From positions 1 through 64,000 of the forward strand of contig NZ_NKXR01000012.1 of assembly GCF_002232035.1 (NCBI RefSeq): a stretch of 64,000 nt of DNA, written 5' to 3'. How positions within the stretch are numbered: position 1 is the first letter of the stretch; the number at the start of each line of letters is the position of its first letter. This document shows positions 40,267-50,011 of this stretch, piece by piece. The notes under the pieces are model-generated. The model did no database searches, was not told the origin of the DNA, and saw only the letters and a program-made list of their open reading frames with translations. Origin of the DNA: Collinsella sp. TF06-26. GTDB taxonomy: Bacteria > Actinomycetota > Coriobacteriia > Coriobacteriales > Coriobacteriaceae. The position numbers were made by a program, and so were the translations under genes.

Positions 40267-40563
40267 ATGGCATATTACTGGCCCCAGTACGGCGTCGCCA
40301 TCGAGGTCGACGACGATCCCTATCTCCTGCCTTTCGACGAAGAGGCGTTCCCCGATACGGCGGTCTACCACGTCACCACCGATGTTATCTGCGACCCCGA
40401 GTCGTTCTCGGCGCTCGCCCACCACATCGCGCGTATCCACGACATCGAGCTCCCTCACGACTTTGACGAGCTCATCTACTCGCGCCGCCTGATGCTTCAC
40501 ATGCTCTTTGGAGCGGACCCGTCCACGTTCGCACGTGTCTACACCACCAAGGACGCCGCATGA
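40267..40563 (+). CDS. Small hypothetical protein, first gene of the secreted-protein cluster
   Basis: This 98-residue acidic protein (MAYYWPQYGVAIEVDDDPYL...) has no signal peptide or membrane segment and resembles no family I can name. GGGAGG lies 5 nt before the ATG, and the next gene overlaps by 4 nt (ATGA), so it is real and co-translated. It may be a cytoplasmic partner or chaperone for the exported proteins encoded downstream; this is only inferred from position. Confidence 0.75.
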   Translation: MAYYWPQYGVAIEVDDDPYLLPFDEEAFPDTAVYHVTTDVICDPESFSALAHHIARIHDIELPHDFDELIYSRRLMLHMLFGADPSTFARVYTTKDAA

Positions 40564-41069
40564 GTGCAAAGAAGCCGCCCCGCCTCGCAGGACTGGGGCA
40601 TCGCAAGAAACTCGTCGTTGTCTGTCTGGCTATCGTCTGCGCCCTCATCGCCGTAGGGCTATACGCCTGGCAGTCGCAGCCCGTGCCCGAAGCGGGCGCC
40701 TCAGTCACGACGGCAGAGGGTAAATCGCGACAAGAAATCCAAGATGAGCTCGATGCCATCGTCCGCGACAACATGATGACGATTTCGGTCGCGCCGGTCG
40801 CTCAGCTACAGGAGGACGGCAAGCTGCGCGTCAACGTGCAAAACGTCCAAGACAATAAATTTCCCCAGCGATTCCGCGTCATCCAAAACGACGAGACCAT
40901 GTACGAATCCGGTGTGGTCGAGACCGGCAAGACAATCGAGACGTGCCCCGCCGGCGACATCAAAGAAGGCGAGGCATACATCGAGATCCAGGCACTCGAT
41001 GCCAAGACCCTCGACAGCCACGGCAATCCGACACGTGTCAAGGTACGGGTTGAGCAAGCCGAGAACTAG
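40560..41069 (+). CDS. Single-pass membrane protein with an extracytoplasmic beta-rich domain (unknown function)
   Basis: The 169 residues comprise a basic start, one membrane anchor (VVVCLAIVCALIAVGLYAW, about 20-38), then an external domain (SVAPVAQLQEDGKLRVNVQNVQDN...TMYESGVVETGKTIETCPAGDIKEGEAYIEIQ). That region reads like a short immunoglobulin-like sandwich found in bacterial surface or assembly proteins. It has a single Cys. It starts in the ATGA overlap with the upstream gene. No family is recognised. Confidence 0.75.
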   Translation: MSAKKPPRLAGLGHRKKLVVVCLAIVCALIAVGLYAWQSQPVPEAGASVTTAEGKSRQEIQDELDAIVRDNMMTISVAPVAQLQEDGKLRVNVQNVQDNKFPQRFRVIQNDETMYESGVVETGKTIETCPAGDIKEGEAYIEIQALDAKTLDSHGNPTRVKVRVEQAEN

Positions 41070-41159
41070 CTTTTTCGGCCGACGCGGCACCGCACGCAAT
41101 TCACCAGCATTCGTCCAATCATCGCGGGGACGGCCCGCGGCGAATAGAAAGGAACGACC

Positions 41160-41759
41160 ATGGACATCACCAGGAACATGAACGGAGCCAGAGCGCTCGT
41201 CGTGGGCGCAGGGCTCGCGCTCGCGCTCGCAATGGGCGCCGCCCCGACGCCAGCTCTGGCAGCCGGGCGCGTTGGAACCACGAAAGTAATGGTCAGGACC
41301 GAGATCGACAACGTAGAGTTCAAAGTTCCGACGGTTATTCCCTTCGTCGCCAAGGCCGACGGCACGCTTCAGGGCCCCTCAGAAGACGCGACCACCATCG
41401 ACAATCATTCGGCCTACGGCATCCATGTCACCAACATGAAGATCGACGCCATGAACACCTGGACCATTGCCGCCGACGCCAAGGCCGGAACCGCGCAGAA
41501 TTCCATCGACTTTAAGGTCGGCCCCGACGGCGCACTCCAGAACGCCAGCGCCGCAATGCAGGAGACGGGCCTCGATCTTTCCAAGAATGCAGCCTTCGAC
41601 ATGGGCTACCAGGGCATTGCCGGCGGCACGGACAAAATTAAGCTCAAGACAAGCGGAAACGTCGCCCGCGTCACGCGCGACATCTTCCGCGTAACCGGCG
41701 AAGGCGATCAGGTTGCAACGATCACCTGGACGGTCGAGCCCGGTGCGCACACGGCATAA
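41160..41759 (+). CDS. Secreted beta-rich protein of unknown function
   Basis: The 199-residue protein has a Sec signal peptide (ALVVGAGLALALAMGAAPTPALA, cleavage near 34) and a mature region with VPTVIPFVAKADGTLQGPS, DNHSAYGIHVTNMKID, NTWTIAAD and a C-terminal TITWTVEPG. This resembles beta-sandwich proteins that occur with LPXTG-type or WxL-like surface proteins; I cannot assign a family. It could be a subunit of a surface fibre or a ligand-binding protein. GAAAGGAACG precedes the ATG. It overlaps the following gene by 17 nt. Confidence 0.78.
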   Translation: MDITRNMNGARALVVGAGLALALAMGAAPTPALAAGRVGTTKVMVRTEIDNVEFKVPTVIPFVAKADGTLQGPSEDATTIDNHSAYGIHVTNMKIDAMNTWTIAADAKAGTAQNSIDFKVGPDGALQNASAAMQETGLDLSKNAAFDMGYQGIAGGTDKIKLKTSGNVARVTRDIFRVTGEGDQVATITWTVEPGAHTA

Positions 41760-42024
41760 GGCTATCGCCCTGGCCGCCACCGTCAGCATCCTAGCGTTTG
41801 GGCCAGCCATGGCCTTTGCCCAGCAAGAACAGGCACAGGCCGCCACGCAAGTGACGGTCGATCTCTCGGAACTCGACCGCGGCGACCGCGAGGAACCGTT
41901 GGCGCAGACAGGCGACAGACGATGGCTCTTGGCAGTAGGTGCCACAGCAGCAGGCGCGGGGACCGCCGGCCTCGGTCTGCACATCAAACACAGCCAGAAA
42001 CAAAACACGGATAGGCCGCACTAA
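41743..42024 (+). CDS. Small LAQTG-sorted cell-wall protein
   Basis: This 93-residue protein starts at a GTG inside the end of the upstream gene (MRTRHKAIALAATVSILAFGPAMAFA signal peptide), has a short acidic mature segment, and ends with EEPLAQTGD (LAQTG at 53-57), a hydrophobic segment (about 61-79) and a basic tail (HIKHSQKQ). That is a complete sortase sorting signal of the LAXTG type. The mature part is only about 25 residues, so the protein may be an anchor or a pilus-base peptide. A sortase is not encoded in the window. Confidence 0.72.
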   Translation: MRTRHKAIALAATVSILAFGPAMAFAQQEQAQAATQVTVDLSELDRGDREEPLAQTGDRRWLLAVGATAAGAGTAGLGLHIKHSQKQNTDRPH

Positions 42025-42042
42025 ATTAGCTAAGGAGACCCC

Positions 42043-43473
42043 ATGGCATCGAAGAACCTTTTGCCCGTCGTCGCACTCTGCGGCGCGCTCGCAACCGGAA
42101 CGCCTGTCGCCGCTTGGGCGACTCCCGTCATGGCAGACTCCTTACCAGCAGCCCTAAGCTCCGCACCAAATCCGTCGAGCGCCATTGCGTGTAAGCGTTT
42201 TTCGATTGCACAGGCCGCAATCTCAACCTCGGGATGCCTTCGTCGTAATACGGACGGCTCGATAGTCGTGGATATCAATCGTTCGAACAAGGTAAACGGC
42301 TCCCAGGCGGGGTGCGCCGTCTGCACGTGGCGCTCGGTTGTGCTCGATGCAGATGGCGATCCATGCAATTTAGAGCTGCGCATCGACATCGCTTCGGTCG
42401 ATGACTCGGCGAACGGAGCGAAGGTCGCCTTTGACGGTGCGTTTTTCGAGAAAGGAGGCGGTATATGTCTGGGCTGCGCCGCCGCGAATGCAGACGACAC
42501 GCAGCCCACCCTCTCATTCACGGCATCGTTGCGGCTGGCCAAAGCCGGCACCGATGCCATCGCGGCGGGAGAAACGTCCCTGCTGCTCTACGCCGCCAGC
42601 ACCAAAGATACAGACGCTCATTTCGAGAAGCCAGCCGGATCACTCAGCCTTACACGAGGGATAGAGGCAGGCCCTATTGAAATCGATGCCCACGCGCAAA
42701 GCAGGCAACGCATTCTTGCCGACCCGGCGCTTCTCGAAATGGAGTGGAACGGATCCGGAGCCATCGGAATTCTCCCCTCCGCGCTTGACGCCAAGACGCT
42801 CCCCTCAAACGACGAACCCATCAACGCAACCATACAAGAAGAGAGCGCGGACAAGGAAGCGGGTGCGGGCGACACGTCATCGCCGACAAACAGCGTCCCA
42901 GCTTCTTTCGAAGCACCGAATGAGCCCGCTACCGATCAAAACGATCCCGAGCTCGCGGACAGTCTGGGGCTTGCTGATCCTCAAGAAATCGATGAAGGTA
43001 ACTGCTGCGTGTTTGCCGCGCTCGACCACACGGAGGTCATCGACGCTGCAAGCATCGAAGTTGCCGCCGCCAATCAGCCCGTCCGCAAGTCGGCCATCAT
43101 CGCATTTCCTGAATCCATCGAAGTCGTCTTTTTGCCATCGGGCGAGGTCGTGGCCCCAACACTGCTCACCTTGTTGGGCGCCAAGAATACTCGAAACGAA
43201 ATAAAAAAGGTCACGGTTGTCGACCCTGCAACCACCGCTAAATTGCGCCTATACGCCGTTGCCCCAGACGGAGGCAAGACCTTGGAATTCGATGGCGACA
43301 CACTCCTAGCCTGGCGACGTCTGGACATTATGCAAGACGTCTCGTATCAGATCGAACTCGAAGGGTTTGATCGTACCCGCGATGCCAATATCATCGCCGC
43401 GGCTATTGAATCCCCACAGCGGCTTATGACACTGCGCTTTGACTACTATCCCTATGTCCCGACAACCACCTGA
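42043..43473 (+). CDS. Large secreted protein with a Cys-rich N-terminal domain (unknown function)
   Basis: The 476-residue protein has a signal peptide (LLPVVALCGALATGTPVAAWA), an N-terminal domain with several cysteines (SIAQAAISTSGC, GCAVCTWRSV, ICLGCAAA), an acidic Ser/Thr/Pro-rich linker (about 255-310), and a C-terminal beta-rich domain ending RLMTLRFDYYPYVP. No sorting motif or membrane anchor is visible, so it is released or held by a partner. It starts 18 nt after the LAQTG gene and completes the cluster. Function is unknown. Confidence 0.78.
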   Translation: MASKNLLPVVALCGALATGTPVAAWATPVMADSLPAALSSAPNPSSAIACKRFSIAQAAISTSGCLRRNTDGSIVVDINRSNKVNGSQAGCAVCTWRSVVLDADGDPCNLELRIDIASVDDSANGAKVAFDGAFFEKGGGICLGCAAANADDTQPTLSFTASLRLAKAGTDAIAAGETSLLLYAASTKDTDAHFEKPAGSLSLTRGIEAGPIEIDAHAQSRQRILADPALLEMEWNGSGAIGILPSALDAKTLPSNDEPINATIQEESADKEAGAGDTSSPTNSVPASFEAPNEPATDQNDPELADSLGLADPQEIDEGNCCVFAALDHTEVIDAASIEVAAANQPVRKSAIIAFPESIEVVFLPSGEVVAPTLLTLLGAKNTRNEIKKVTVVDPATTAKLRLYAVAPDGGKTLEFDGDTLLAWRRLDIMQDVSYQIELEGFDRTRDANIIAAAIESPQRLMTLRFDYYPYVPTTT

Positions 43474-44395: not shown

Positions 44396-46156
44396 GTGGC
44401 CGACCAGGACATCAAGATGCTCATCGAGCGCATTATGGCCGAGGCTCGGACCCATCAGTCCGCCCGCTTCTCAAACGAAATCTACGCAGACGAGCCGATT
44501 CTCAAGACCGGCCGACAGATGCAGAACTTCCTCCCCGACCAATACCGCAAGATGCGTGAGATATCGCGTTGGCAAGAAGACCCAAAGGGCGGCGCGGGCC
44601 GTTGGCTTTCGGAAGCCGAACTTTTCTACCGCCAAGGCCTGCTGATGGCTGACTTTGAGGACGACTGTCCCTACAACGGCACCTTTAAGTCGTACTTTCC
44701 CACCTACAACGCCATGAGCGACCGGCAGTTGCGCGGCTACTTTACCTGGCGTGCCCAAGTGCGCCGCGGAACCGTCGAGGAAACGTCTACGTCCTTTGCC
44801 TTTCTGTATCTCTATGAGCTGATCTGCGGCATTGGCGTAGATAATCCACTCGATGGTTTTAACAAGATCAAGGCTTTTTGGGATGTCTATCGCGCCTTCG
44901 AGCCCGGCATCGACCGGTTTGCGCGCGTGTGGCTGCAAGATTACGCCGTGTTCCACGGGCTCGACCCCAAGCTGCTTCGCGACTCTAAAACCGTCATGTT
45001 CGATAACGCCCTTATCGAACTGCGGCGCGCGGCACGAGACCTTGTACCGGCACCGGCACCGTCCGGCCAGACCCCTAAGCGTCGCAAAACCTCCGAGCCC
45101 ACGCTCCCCCTTCCGCCCGATGAGGTGCGCGAGGAGCGACTCATGGCCGCCATCAACGCCCTCTCCACGTACAACCTAAGTAGCTCGCGGCTCGACCGCA
45201 GCCACCACCGCGATCTGCGCCACGTGGCGTGCGCCGTGTATGTCCGCATGACGCGCTACTATGACACGCACCGAAAGACCGGCATCGTGGCAAGTTTATT
45301 TGGGGAGGAGACGGCAATGCCCTACACCATGTTTGCCTCGGCCGTATTCTTTGCGCCCGAGCGCCACGAGGACTGCGAATACCGTCTGGACCCCATCCAT
45401 ATCTACCGTTGCCAAAACGGTTTTTGGGAATGCATGCGGATTCACGGCAGCAGACAAAAGAGCAGCAAACTTGGCGAGATGATGCGCGCCTGCGACCAAC
45501 GCCTGCGCCTGGCCCTGGACCCTGCCCATCCCCTGAAGGAAGAAAAGGTCCCCAAATATCTGGCCAAGATTATCGATGACGAGATTGTGGCATGGCTTTC
45601 GTGGGACGCCGCACACCAGCCCGTCAAGATCGATATCGATTTGAGCCAGCTGGGGCACATTCGGAGCGCTGCCGCACAAACGCGCGAAGCGCTTTTGATC
45701 GACGAGGAACGCGAGGACGGCGCGTCCGCAGAAGCCGAGGCAGCGGACTCAGGGCAACCGGAAGCCGAGCCCGTAGCCGACGCGATGGTCGAGGCGGTCG
45801 CGGCGGCTGCAGGGCGGGACGAGTCCGACGGGCCGACCATATCCACCGAACAGTTTGGTGTCGTGGCACCGCTTCTCGCGCCGACGCCCGCGTTCGCAGC
45901 TGCTACGCCCGCTGACGCCACAAACGAACTCGCGCCCGCCGCAGACGCCTATCTCCGCGCTCTGCTCGAGCACAACACAGTACAGGCGGAATCGGCGGTA
46001 GTGCAATCGGAGCAGAGCGAGGACATGCTCGTCGATACCATCAACGAGGCGCTCTTTGACCTGGTGGGCGACACCGTAATTGAATTTAGCGCGGCAGGGC
46101 CGCAGATTATCGAGGACTATGAAGCAGACGTGAGAGGATACCTAGACCATGAGTGA
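44396..46156 (+). CDS. sngA: TerB-N/TerB-C domain protein, SngA-like (Shango system)
   Basis: The 586 residues show the TerB-N domain (ISRWQEDPKGGAGRWLSEAELFYRQGLLMADF, YFTWRAQVRRG, TSFAFLYLYELICGIG, residues ~60-200) and at the C-terminus a TerB-C-like end (INEALFDLVGDTVIEF...IIEDYEADV). An Ala/Glu-rich linker separates them. No membrane segment is seen. It starts at a GTG after GAGGAGGAG and overlaps the ATPase gene by 8 nt. TerB-type proteins pair with an ATPase and helicase in the anti-phage system Shango, where this would be SngA. The symbol is by architecture, not by a search. Confidence 0.82.
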   Translation: MADQDIKMLIERIMAEARTHQSARFSNEIYADEPILKTGRQMQNFLPDQYRKMREISRWQEDPKGGAGRWLSEAELFYRQGLLMADFEDDCPYNGTFKSYFPTYNAMSDRQLRGYFTWRAQVRRGTVEETSTSFAFLYLYELICGIGVDNPLDGFNKIKAFWDVYRAFEPGIDRFARVWLQDYAVFHGLDPKLLRDSKTVMFDNALIELRRAARDLVPAPAPSGQTPKRRKTSEPTLPLPPDEVREERLMAAINALSTYNLSSSRLDRSHHRDLRHVACAVYVRMTRYYDTHRKTGIVASLFGEETAMPYTMFASAVFFAPERHEDCEYRLDPIHIYRCQNGFWECMRIHGSRQKSSKLGEMMRACDQRLRLALDPAHPLKEEKVPKYLAKIIDDEIVAWLSWDAAHQPVKIDIDLSQLGHIRSAAAQTREALLIDEEREDGASAEAEAADSGQPEAEPVADAMVEAVAAAAGRDESDGPTISTEQFGVVAPLLAPTPAFAAATPADATNELAPAADAYLRALLEHNTVQAESAVVQSEQSEDMLVDTINEALFDLVGDTVIEFSAAGPQIIEDYEADVRGYLDHE

Positions 46157-47453
46157 TACCGCATCCGCAGCACCTCGCGTGCCCAAGCGCGTCGCTGCCG
46201 TCATTCTCAACTCGCTCAAGGGCGGCGTGGTCCCGCGCATCGGCCTTCCTTACATCACCGTAGGGCGCGAGGTCGAGATCCGCGCCCTGCTCACCGATCT
46301 GAGTCTCATCGCCGACGGTGGCGCGAGCTTCCGCTTTCTGGTCGGTCGTTACGGCGCCGGCAAGAGCTTTTTGCTCCAGACTGTCCGCACGCACGCCATG
46401 GGCGAGGGGTTCGTCGTCGCTGATGCCGACCTGTCGCCCGAGCGCCGCCTGCAGGGCGGTCAGGGACAGGGCCTTGCCACCTACCGCGAGCTCATCCGCA
46501 ATATATCGACCAAGACGCGCCCCGAGGGCGGTGCGCTCAACCTTATTCTGGATCGCTGGGTCGCCTCGTGTGCCGACGTCGACGAGTCGGTCGTCAATGC
46601 CCAACTGGCCCCGCTCGAGGAGATGGTCCACGGCTTCGACTTCACCCGCATGCTCCGCCGCTATCGCATGGCCGCATCCGGGGGCGACGAAGAGACCATG
46701 AGCCGCGTGACCAAATGGATTCGCGGCGAATACCGCACCAAGAGCGAGGCACGCGCCGAGCTGGGCTCCTCGACCATCATCAGCGATGACGACTGGTACG
46801 ACTACGTTAAGCTCATTGCGCGCTTTTTGGTTTGCAGTGGCTACAAGGGCATGCTGGTGCTCATCGACGAGCTCGTGAATCTGTATAAGATTCCCAACGC
46901 CATCACGCGCCAATACAACTACGAGAAGATCCTGACTATGTACAACGACACGCTCCAGGGCAAGGCGCAGTACCTGGGCATGATCATGGGCGGCACGCCA
47001 ACCTCCATCGAAGACCGCCGCCGCGGCGTGTTCTCCTACGAGGCCCTGCGCAGCCGACTCGCTCAGGGCCGCTTTGCGCGCGAAGACCTTAAGGACATGC
47101 TCGCGCCCATCATCCGCCTGCAGCCACTCACCTACGAGGAGCTACTGGTGCTCATCGAAAAACTCATGCAGATCCATGCCGGCTACTTTGGCTGGACGCC
47201 CACGCTTGCCGAAAACGACTTGGTGGACTTCCTCAAGATCGAGTTCGGTCGCGTGGGAGCCGACACGCATCTGACGCCGCGTGAAGTCATTCGTGACTTT
47301 ATCGAGCTGCTCGATATCCTGTGTCAGAACCCCGATGCAAATGTGGCCGAGCTGCTGCAAAGCGTCGGCGGCGACGCGCTGGCGCCGGCAGCCGCAACAG
47401 GCGACACCGGCACCGCAGGCGGCGACCGCAACTTCGCCGAGTTCACCATCTAA
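46149..47453 (+). CDS. sngB: DUF2791 P-loop ATPase, SngB-like
   Basis: The 434-residue AAA-type ATPase belongs to DUF2791 (BrxC/BrxD-like). It has Walker A GRYGAGKS (66-73), Walker B MLVLIDELVNL, GGTPTSIEDRRRGVFSYEALRSRL (sensor region) and a helical C-terminus (TPREVIRDFIELLDILCQ). Such ATPases occur in BREX and Shango defence loci. It overlaps sngA by 8 nt. No pglZ, methylase or brxA-like gene is nearby, so BREX is unlikely. The protein ends in a Gly/Ala-rich tail. Confidence 0.85.
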   Translation: MSDTASAAPRVPKRVAAVILNSLKGGVVPRIGLPYITVGREVEIRALLTDLSLIADGGASFRFLVGRYGAGKSFLLQTVRTHAMGEGFVVADADLSPERRLQGGQGQGLATYRELIRNISTKTRPEGGALNLILDRWVASCADVDESVVNAQLAPLEEMVHGFDFTRMLRRYRMAASGGDEETMSRVTKWIRGEYRTKSEARAELGSSTIISDDDWYDYVKLIARFLVCSGYKGMLVLIDELVNLYKIPNAITRQYNYEKILTMYNDTLQGKAQYLGMIMGGTPTSIEDRRRGVFSYEALRSRLAQGRFAREDLKDMLAPIIRLQPLTYEELLVLIEKLMQIHAGYFGWTPTLAENDLVDFLKIEFGRVGADTHLTPREVIRDFIELLDILCQNPDANVAELLQSVGGDALAPAAATGDTGTAGGDRNFAEFTI

Positions 47454-47569
47454 CCTACCAAAAAGGGACAGGTTTATTTTGGCAGGTTTTATCTGGGCAA
47501 ACGTTGAAGCAGTAATGCAGCAAGCCGTTGCCAGCCGCGTTGAGAGATTCGTTGTTGAAAGGAGGCCCC

Positions 47570-50011
47570 GTGAACGCCTTTGACCGCTACGCCCCGTTTA
47601 TCCAAGACTTCATCTACTCCCACGATTGGGAGAGTCTGCGCTCCATTCAGGTTGCGGCGGCAGATGCCATCTTTAGCACACAAGACAATGTGCTCCTAAC
47701 GGCATCCACGGCATCCGGCAAAACCGAGGCAGCCTTCTTTCCCATCCTGACCGAGTTTTGGGAGAACCCGCCCGCGAGCGTGGGCGCCCTCTACATTGGC
47801 CCCCTCAAAGCGCTCATCAATGATCAGTTCGTCCGCCTCAACGACCTCTGCGAAGAGGCCGACATCCCTGTCTGGCACTGGCATGGCGACGTTTCGCAGT
47901 CGCACAAGGCAAAGCTCATCAAAAAGCCGAGCGGCATTTTGCAGATTACACCCGAGTCGCTCGAGGCGCTCCTGATCCATAAGCACATGGCGATCCCGCG
48001 CATGTTTTGCGACCTGCGCTACGTCGTCATCGACGAGGTCCACTCGCTCATGCGCGGCGATCGAGGCGGGCAGACGCTCTGCCTTATCGAGCGACTCTCG
48101 CACATGGCCGGCGTGCAGCCTCGCCGCATTGGCCTTTCGGCTACCATCGGCGACCCCGAGCGCACGGGTGCTTTTCTCTCACAGGGAACGGGACGCGACT
48201 GCGTTATCCCCCGCTTTGAAGAACCGCGCCGCGTGTGGCGCATCTCCATGGAGCACTTCTACAACTCGGGTCCCCAGGCGCAGCAGCGAGGATTTGAGAG
48301 TACAGGTCCTCAAGAGGCCGAAGTGCTTGCGTGCGAGCGCATTGAGGCGGCACCCGCGGCACTGCCCGCCGGCGCCCAAGACATGCGTCACAGCGGACAG
48401 CCCACACAAGAGGAGTACCGCCAACGTCGTGAGCGGGCACGGGACAAGGCTACCTCCAGGGATCACCGCACTTCGTCGGCCCCCGAGGGCGAAGTCGACA
48501 TCCCACAGGCACCCGAACAGGCATTACTCAACCCCACCGACACAGCGCCAGACAACGCCGACCCCGGCATGGGCTATATCTTTGAGCACACGCGCGGCCG
48601 CAAATGCCTGGTCTTTGCCAACTCGCGCGAGGAGGCAGAGGCCGTATGCTCCATGCTGCGCAGCTACTGCGAGAGCCGGCACGAGCCCGACCGCTTTCTC
48701 ATCCACCACGGCAACCTTTCGGCATCGTTACGCGAGACCGCCGAGGAGCTCATGCGCGACGAGGAACAGGCACAGACGACCGTCACCACCTCTACGCTGG
48801 AACTCGGTATTGATATCGGCCGTCTGGAGCGTGCCTTCCAGATCGACGCACCATTTACCGTCAGCTCCTTTTTGCAGCGAATGGGCCGCACGGGACGCCG
48901 CGATCTTCCGCCCGAGATGTGGTTCGTTATGCGCGAGGAAGAGCCCGAGCCGCGCACGATGATGCCCGAGACCATTCCCTGGAAGCTCCTCCAGGGCATC
49001 GCGCTCGTACAACTCTATCGCGAGGAAAAGTGGGTCGAGCCGCCCGAGCTCGATCGACTCCCCTACAGTCTGCTCTATCACCAGACCATGTCGACCCTCG
49101 CCAGCACCGGAGAGCTCACGCCGGCCGAACTTGCCCAGCGCGTGCTCACGCTCAGCTATTTCCATCGCATCTCGGCCGATGACTATCGCGTGCTGCTGCG
49201 TCACCTCATTACAATCGACCATATCCAGGTCACCGAGGGCGGCGGGCTCATCGTGGGTCTCGCGGGCGAGCGTATCATTAACAACTTTAAGTTTTACGCC
49301 GTGTTCCAGGAAAACGAGGAGTTCACCGTTCGCAGCGAGTCGGCCGAGTTGGGCACGATTGTCAATCCGCCACCGCCCGGTGAGCGCATCGCCATCGCCG
49401 GACACTGCTGGATTGTCGAGGAAGTGGACTGGAAGCGTCATACCGTCTTTGCCACGCAGGTCAAGGGCCGGGTGCCGGCCTACTTTGGCGACTGCCCCGG
49501 TGACATCAACACACATGTACTCGAGCGTATGCGCAAGGCGCTTAACGAGCACGCGTCGTATCCGTACCTCATGGGTAATGCACGGGCCCGTCTGGCGCAG
49601 GCTCGCCATACGGCCGAGATTTCGGGCGCGGGGACCAAGCCGCTCATTAACCTGGGCGGCGACACCTGGGTGCTCTTCCCCTGGCTGGGAAGCTACGCCT
49701 TTTTGGCGCTCGAACGTATGCTCAAGATTAAATGCGCCGCGGAGCTGGGCCTTCGCGGACTCGACCCGTCACGCCCGTACTTTATGCAGTTTAAGATGAA
49801 GGCCGACGAGGAGACGTTCTTTGAGGTGCTCGCCGCCGAGGCCGAAAAGGACTTCGACCCCATCGAGCTCGTCTATCCCGGCGAGGTGCCTTACTTTGAT
49901 CGCTACGACGAGTACGTTCCCGAGGAGCTCGTGCGCAAGGGCTTTGCCGAAGGCGTGCTCGACATAGAGGGCATGAAGCAGCGCGTTCACGGCTGGCGCG
50001 ACCACGCCTAA
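47570..50011 (+). CDS. sngC: DEVH-box superfamily II helicase, SngC-like
   Basis: This 813-residue helicase has Walker A TASTASGKTEA (Lys51), LYIGPLKALINDQ, VVIDEVHSLMRGDRGGQ, LSATIGDPE, STLELGIDIG and QRMGRTGRRD. A divergent, charged insertion of ~70 residues (HSGQPTQEEYRQRRERARDKA...) follows motif III. The C-terminal half is Lhr-like. GTG at 47570 has AAAGGAGG 4 nt upstream. It follows sngB on the same strand after a 116-nt gap. With the TerB protein and ATPase it completes a Shango-type trio. Confidence 0.87.
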   Translation: MNAFDRYAPFIQDFIYSHDWESLRSIQVAAADAIFSTQDNVLLTASTASGKTEAAFFPILTEFWENPPASVGALYIGPLKALINDQFVRLNDLCEEADIPVWHWHGDVSQSHKAKLIKKPSGILQITPESLEALLIHKHMAIPRMFCDLRYVVIDEVHSLMRGDRGGQTLCLIERLSHMAGVQPRRIGLSATIGDPERTGAFLSQGTGRDCVIPRFEEPRRVWRISMEHFYNSGPQAQQRGFESTGPQEAEVLACERIEAAPAALPAGAQDMRHSGQPTQEEYRQRRERARDKATSRDHRTSSAPEGEVDIPQAPEQALLNPTDTAPDNADPGMGYIFEHTRGRKCLVFANSREEAEAVCSMLRSYCESRHEPDRFLIHHGNLSASLRETAEELMRDEEQAQTTVTTSTLELGIDIGRLERAFQIDAPFTVSSFLQRMGRTGRRDLPPEMWFVMREEEPEPRTMMPETIPWKLLQGIALVQLYREEKWVEPPELDRLPYSLLYHQTMSTLASTGELTPAELAQRVLTLSYFHRISADDYRVLLRHLITIDHIQVTEGGGLIVGLAGERIINNFKFYAVFQENEEFTVRSESAELGTIVNPPPPGERIAIAGHCWIVEEVDWKRHTVFATQVKGRVPAYFGDCPGDINTHVLERMRKALNEHASYPYLMGNARARLAQARHTAEISGAGTKPLINLGGDTWVLFPWLGSYAFLALERMLKIKCAAELGLRGLDPSRPYFMQFKMKADEETFFEVLAAEAEKDFDPIELVYPGEVPYFDRYDEYVPEELVRKGFAEGVLDIEGMKQRVHGWRDHA

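Follow-up and report, generated by a model that had tools for sequence, protein, structure and literature searches.

Several lines of evidence suggest that four adjacent genes of Collinsella, here called B, C, D and E, specify a surface fibre that is fixed to the cell wall and assembled by beta-strand donation, a reading that we hold with moderate confidence. We observed that the four genes are kept together in relatives, that C and D share a short strand, that C and E share a domain, and that the shared strand lies outside the predicted fold of C. The genes belong to a 64,000-nucleotide stretch of DNA (the window) from a genome of the C. aerofaciens group that comprises 2.26 Mb in 41 contigs (Table 1).

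Table 1. Genes and proposed elements of the cluster in the window.
Feature	Position	Strand	Description
Gene A	40267-40563	+	98 aa; small acidic protein; judged to be outside the module
Gene B	40560-41069	+	169 aa; N-terminal membrane helix, with an Ig/FN3-like domain outside; putative chaperone or platform for assembly
Gene C	41160-41759	+	199 aa; begins with a signal peptide; beta-sandwich; putative fibre subunit that would both donate and accept
Proposed donor strand of C, GTTKVMVRT	41274-41300	+	Mature residues 4-12; outside the predicted fold; conserved, with alternating hydrophobic positions
Gene D	41743-42024	+	93 aa; GTG start; LAQTG, hydrophobic stretch and basic residues; putative donor peptide on the wall, at the base of the fibre
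Proposed donor strand of D, AATQVTVDL	41839-41865	+	Matches the C-strand matrix; 295/10,000 shuffles reach the score for the window D alone
Sorting motif LAQTG of D	41899-41913	+	Read from the sequence
Gene E	42043-43473	+	476 aa; signal peptide; Cys-containing; proposed tip
C-like domain of E	43078-43470	+	Residues 346-476 approximately; no donor strand; putative acceptor

Gene layout

An initial annotation had described five adjacent genes, A to E, and each of these reading frames is indeed found on the + strand. The overlaps that it gave (4 nt for A/B and 17 nt for C/D) and the 18-nt gap between D and E are exact; a 90-nt gap between B and C had been left out. It could name no family for any of the proteins, and indeed no Pfam or NCBIfam model matches A, B, C, D or E above cut-off. 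Simple promoter and terminator scans gave numbers close to chance. A sortase elsewhere in the genome had been raised as a point to check, and two sortase genes are present outside the cluster, one of class C, on a contig other than the cluster's, and one class B-like. Just downstream of the cluster, at 44396-50011, lie three genes that match PADLOC SngA, SngB and SngC (TerB-like, BrxC/D-type ATPase and helicase) and that, judged by these matches, make up a Shango-type anti-phage defence system.

Conservation of the module

By tblastn, the order A-B-C-D-E is unchanged in each of the 23 C. aerofaciens-group genomes with loci covering the block (L003-L025) and also in 19 named GTDB contigs (L033-L051), with E identity down to 56% across these block-bearing loci; in one further genome the cluster is split across contig ends (L026/L032). 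A five-gene order conserved in every covering locus indicates that the block is more than a chance arrangement. In distant Collinsella (L052-L055) the order is a SpaA/CnaB-rich adhesin, B-C-D-E and a class B-like sortase, without A, and a further locus (L056) holds only B, C and an LRR-type E. Relatives of A are found on other contigs of distant Collinsella genomes and in other Coriobacteriia. Because the clusters of distant Collinsella lack A and its relatives lie elsewhere, we exclude A from the module; as judged from gene order and homology, B, C, D and E form a real one. The five-gene cluster of the initial annotation, which was to be given up if its genes proved scattered in relatives, thus stands for B-C-D-E, which stay together, and falls for A.

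A profile of C built from eight sequences has matches in 45 of 298 Coriobacteriia genomes, belonging to 13 of 125 genera. In the 18 distant loci outside the aerofaciens group (L052-L056 and L091-L103), B stands beside C without exception (E <=1.5e-30). No Pfam family was found across 23 members of either B or C. D was found in 11 of these 18 loci and not found in the other seven.

The loci vary in several further respects. In L102 (6580-9924) and L103 (2350-6636), D is fused in frame to the front of a large protein, which leaves the sorting signal and membrane stretch of the tiny LPxTG-type protein internal, and the L102 fusion has, by eye, an apparent subtilase-like stretch. The sorting motif of D reads LAQTD, LAQTS or LVQTS in several Collinsella species (L020, L021, L023-L025, L047 and L049-L051), and it is doubtful whether LAQTS and LAQTD, seen in some sister species, act as sorting signals. 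Gene B has an apparent frame change near residue 101 in L045 and L018 (G009), which appears to be a sequencing error or a broken gene. A single C in L100 is surrounded by two B proteins and two very large proteins, possibly a double set. The SpaA/CnaB-repeat adhesin upstream of B in L052-L055 is very large, is absent from the window and carries LDQTG-type signals in L053 and L055.

A strand common to C and D

We had not expected the C profile to match D, yet it did so across the signal peptide and the strand that follows. Because the signal peptide had to be excluded, we scanned D only between the signal peptide and the sorting motif, using a nine-column matrix of the C strand (GTTxVTVxx). Over the D proteins of ten divergent loci the scores sum to 133.5 bits, compared with a mean of 20.4, a standard deviation of 9.2 and a maximum of 57.8 bits for 10,000 shuffles of the same stretches, which somewhat overstate independence as the loci share descent. 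The best position always lies 3-15 residues into the mature protein. For single D proteins between 0 and 636 of 10,000 shuffles reach the observed score (295 for the window D), and for several of them, including that of the window, the match would be unremarkable by itself. A pairwise BLOSUM test of the C and D strands, weaker than the matrix test, gave 233 versus a maximum of 203 in 1,000 shuffles, and D strands fit their own C no better than foreign C (p=0.26). The remainder of mature D is unconserved, and the segment is kept across several Coriobacteriia families. By these comparisons the GTTxVTV segment of C, a short and beta-prone motif, appears to recur in D wherever D is found.

A strand offered to a neighbouring subunit is the reading of this sharing that we favour. 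It is improbable that the segment instead acts in secretion, processing or targeting as soon as the signal peptide has been removed, or serves B as a docking tag: its shortness, its place next to the signal peptide in C as in D and the constant pairing of B with C in the distant loci would suit such a role, but E is exported without a segment of this kind at that place, large WxL proteins (see below) also lack it, and its V-x-V pattern is that of a beta-strand. We give little credence to an ordinary adhesin cluster in which D arose from a copied C front end and merely decorates the wall or decays. The C/D overlap, the C-profile match to D across signal peptide and strand and the altered LAQTG of some species are what such a history would leave, yet the segment persists in D across families in which the rest of the mature protein is unconserved, and unrelated CscD proteins of Bacillota show the same strand sharing.

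Predicted structures of C and B

AlphaFold2, given 23 sequences, predicts mature C as a confident beta sandwich (pLDDT 86.7, pTM 0.81) in which residues 1-13 are without secondary structure and residue 19 opens the first strand. The segment shared with D has a mean top-residue frequency of 0.57 versus 0.47 for the rest of C, and positions 8 and 10 are hydrophobic in all 23 sequences. A Foldseek search of the C model against the PDB gave no significant match (none <0.001; best E 0.019). The top rows, all non-significant, were the archaeal thread 7pnb, the TasA fibre 8aur and TLP-1b, together with the CFA/I tip adhesin, the Natrinema Tafi pilus and the CupB6 tip. TasA (PMC9674648) and archaeal bundling pili (PMC11952670) are donor-strand fibres, and the list for the predicted C model points weakly toward subunits of such fibres; because the TM-scores are about 0.3, we regard it as a pointer and no proof. 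A sequence search of the PDB with C and E profiles returned no match. The external part of B is predicted with modest confidence as an Ig/FN3-like sandwich (AF2 pLDDT 72.9). Its Foldseek matches are generic Ig/FN3 domains, pilus chaperones among them, so that structure alone does not back a chaperone role.

A C-like domain in E

The initial annotation called E a Cys-rich secreted protein; its signal peptide and cysteines are there, and what was missing from that description is a C-terminal domain that looks like a diverged copy of C. When the E domains of 13 non-aerofaciens proteins are aligned with the C family (124 columns; probability 97.9, E 6.6e-13), the match sets in past the donor segment. 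The window E, a diverged member, gives an HMM i-E of 1.4e-5 in a search of four proteins and, against the other E domains, an hhalign probability of 40.8 (E 2.8e-4); it has no significant direct match to C, and its link to the C-like domain is weak. In comparison with shuffles, neither the window E nor five other E proteins have a significant strand match. A similar internal strand is found in E of L093, L094 and L053 (2, 1 and 11 of 500 shuffles, respectively, reach its score), about 60-75 residues in, where it is probably part of a folded domain. E proteins of relatives contain InlB-B repeats or BspA-type LRR, which fits the expectation for binding tips.

Proposed fibre assembly

In the assembly that we propose, each C would be a beta sandwich with an open groove, into which the preceding C would place its free N-terminal strand (GTTxVTV). 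D would be a donor strand without a body, linked to peptidoglycan by a sortase, and its strand would fill the groove of the first C and so fix the fibre to the wall. E, having a C-type domain without a donor strand, could only accept and would therefore form the tip, with its other domains available for binding, and the membrane-bound Ig-like B would likely be a chaperone or platform. A donor-only D, a C that both donates and accepts and an acceptor-only E would correspond to the base, shaft and tip of a donor-strand fibre. The parts of this model that we infer are the insertion into a groove, the growth into a polymer and its polarity, what B and E do, and the choice of sortase. The tip protein of type 1 pili, FimH, accepts only. 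The idea of the initial annotation, a fibre or adhesion complex at the surface that includes a tiny peptide anchored in the wall, survives in outline, with gene A no part of it.

Counted against the fibre are the similar strand held by some E proteins (L093 and L094, less so L053), the distant loci in which D was not found, the indifference of D to its own C, the LAQTS and LAQTD motifs and the weak link of the window E. A finite D-C-E chain would fit the sequences equally well as a polymer. Strand donation might give a short, fixed complex, with one copy each of D, C and E, that holds the large protein on the wall. The sequences are silent on the number of successive C subunits, and the Csc clusters of Bacillota were proposed to form a cell-surface complex with fibres unmentioned (PMC1534035). 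We nevertheless consider such a complex unlikely, as C has both donor and acceptor parts, which permits self-assembly, and as its nearest folds, weak as those matches are, are fibre subunits.

Comparison with known surface systems

The proposed fibre resembles several known systems in its logic. Spa-type pili share LPxTG-type anchoring, and in relatives the cluster is flanked by a SpaA/CnaB-rich adhesin and a class B-like sortase; unlike their subunits, C and E have no sorting signal, and a sortase therefore cannot join the shaft covalently. We rejected a sortase-polymerised pilus on this ground, and also because the sortases found in the clusters of relatives are class B-like, the class C enzyme of this genome lying on another contig. 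Chaperone-usher pili (type 1, CFA/I, CupB) have, like the arrangement proposed here, an acceptor-only tip adhesin and a shaft that donates and accepts, whereas here there is no outer membrane or usher and no sequence similarity was found.

The TasA/TapA system of Bacillus subtilis (camelysin) also has a proposed N-terminal donor strand on a beta sandwich and an accessory protein whose N-terminus resembles that strand, as reported for TapA (PMC9674648); TapA residues 44-57 alone support biofilm formation (PMC10151520). Unlike TapA, D is too short to hold a folded domain and has a sortase signal. PF12389 has no match in this genome, C compared with Coriobacteriia PF12389 proteins gave an hhalign probability of 0.3%, and no SipW-type signal peptidase is encoded by A-E or the next gene (DUF554). 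Membership in the camelysin family was rejected for want of PF12389 homology and an operon peptidase. TasA-type PF12389 matches occur in 66 of 149 Coriobacteriia genomes, mostly outside Collinsella's order, and are perhaps a second donor-strand system in the class.

The closest parallel in organisation is with the Csc/WxL clusters of Bacillota, known from lactic acid bacteria and enterococci, which likewise encode, in one direction, a membrane-bound Ig-like protein, a small and a large secreted protein that share a domain, and a tiny LPxTG protein. The shared domain is found in C and E of non-aerofaciens relatives (the E 6.6e-13 match above) and is weak for the window E. D, at 93 aa with LAQTG, falls within the 90-140 residues of the tiny Csc protein; the mature part ahead of the motif comprises about 26 aa, fewer than the 40-60 aa given for Csc (PMC1534035). 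Unlike Csc/WxL, the genes are actinobacterial, no WxL, DUF916 or DUF3324 domain was detected, and B has a single external domain and an N-terminal membrane helix, that of CscA/WxLIP being C-terminal. The WxL domain PF13731 has no Pfam match in C, E or any C member and is absent from all Collinsella searched, C aligned to WxL with an hhalign probability of 5%, and none of 23 B members matches DUF916-DUF3324, the Pfam domain pair of WxLIP. Csc/WxL membership by sequence was rejected on the missing PF13731 and DUF916-DUF3324 and the N-terminal helix. For both Csc and TasA/TapA, the sequence comparisons support 'works like' better than 'member of'.

The parallel extends to the strand. In plasmid-borne Bacillota WxL clusters, which served as the comparison set, CscD has, as D does with C, the strand with which the mature small WxL protein begins (in Enterococcus raffinosus, YDSNGVTAF in CscD versus YDSNGVITF in WxL); we saw this sharing in L129, L132, L137 and L140-L142. 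With a matrix of fifteen WxL strands from which the WxL of the same locus was left out, six CscD proteins sum to 52.8 bits, compared with a mean of 17.1 and a maximum of 45.5 in 10,000 shuffles, a result to be read knowing that the matrix was built after the resemblance had been noticed and from few clusters. The best matrix position in the L140 CscD is other than expected, and seven large WxL proteins have no such strand. AlphaFold2 has been reported to insert a WxLIP strand into the WxL sandwich, completing it (PMC10599100), which fits an incomplete WxL fold. In the literature searched, a single paper contains both 'WxL' and 'donor strand', once each.

Implications

Tentatively, and leaning slightly against it ourselves, we raise the broader idea that donor-strand fibres with a sortase-anchored, bodiless donor peptide as base could be a general Gram-positive appendage, represented by the unnamed actinobacterial B/C family and by Csc/WxL of Bacillota through convergence or deep descent, with CscD as the wall-linked donor strands of WxL fibres. 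For the tiny LPxTG proteins in Csc clusters, Siezen et al. (PMC1534035) wrote of anchoring 'through as yet unknown interactions'. A literature search on Collinsella with pili and sortase gave nothing relevant by title or abstract. If the fibre reading is right, it would explain the role of these tiny proteins and would provide a testable structure for WxL systems, both in gut commensals and in enterococci. The fibre would be held together non-covalently yet anchored covalently in the wall, a pairing for which the literature searched gave no example, and would give Collinsella, a common human gut genus, a new surface appendage.
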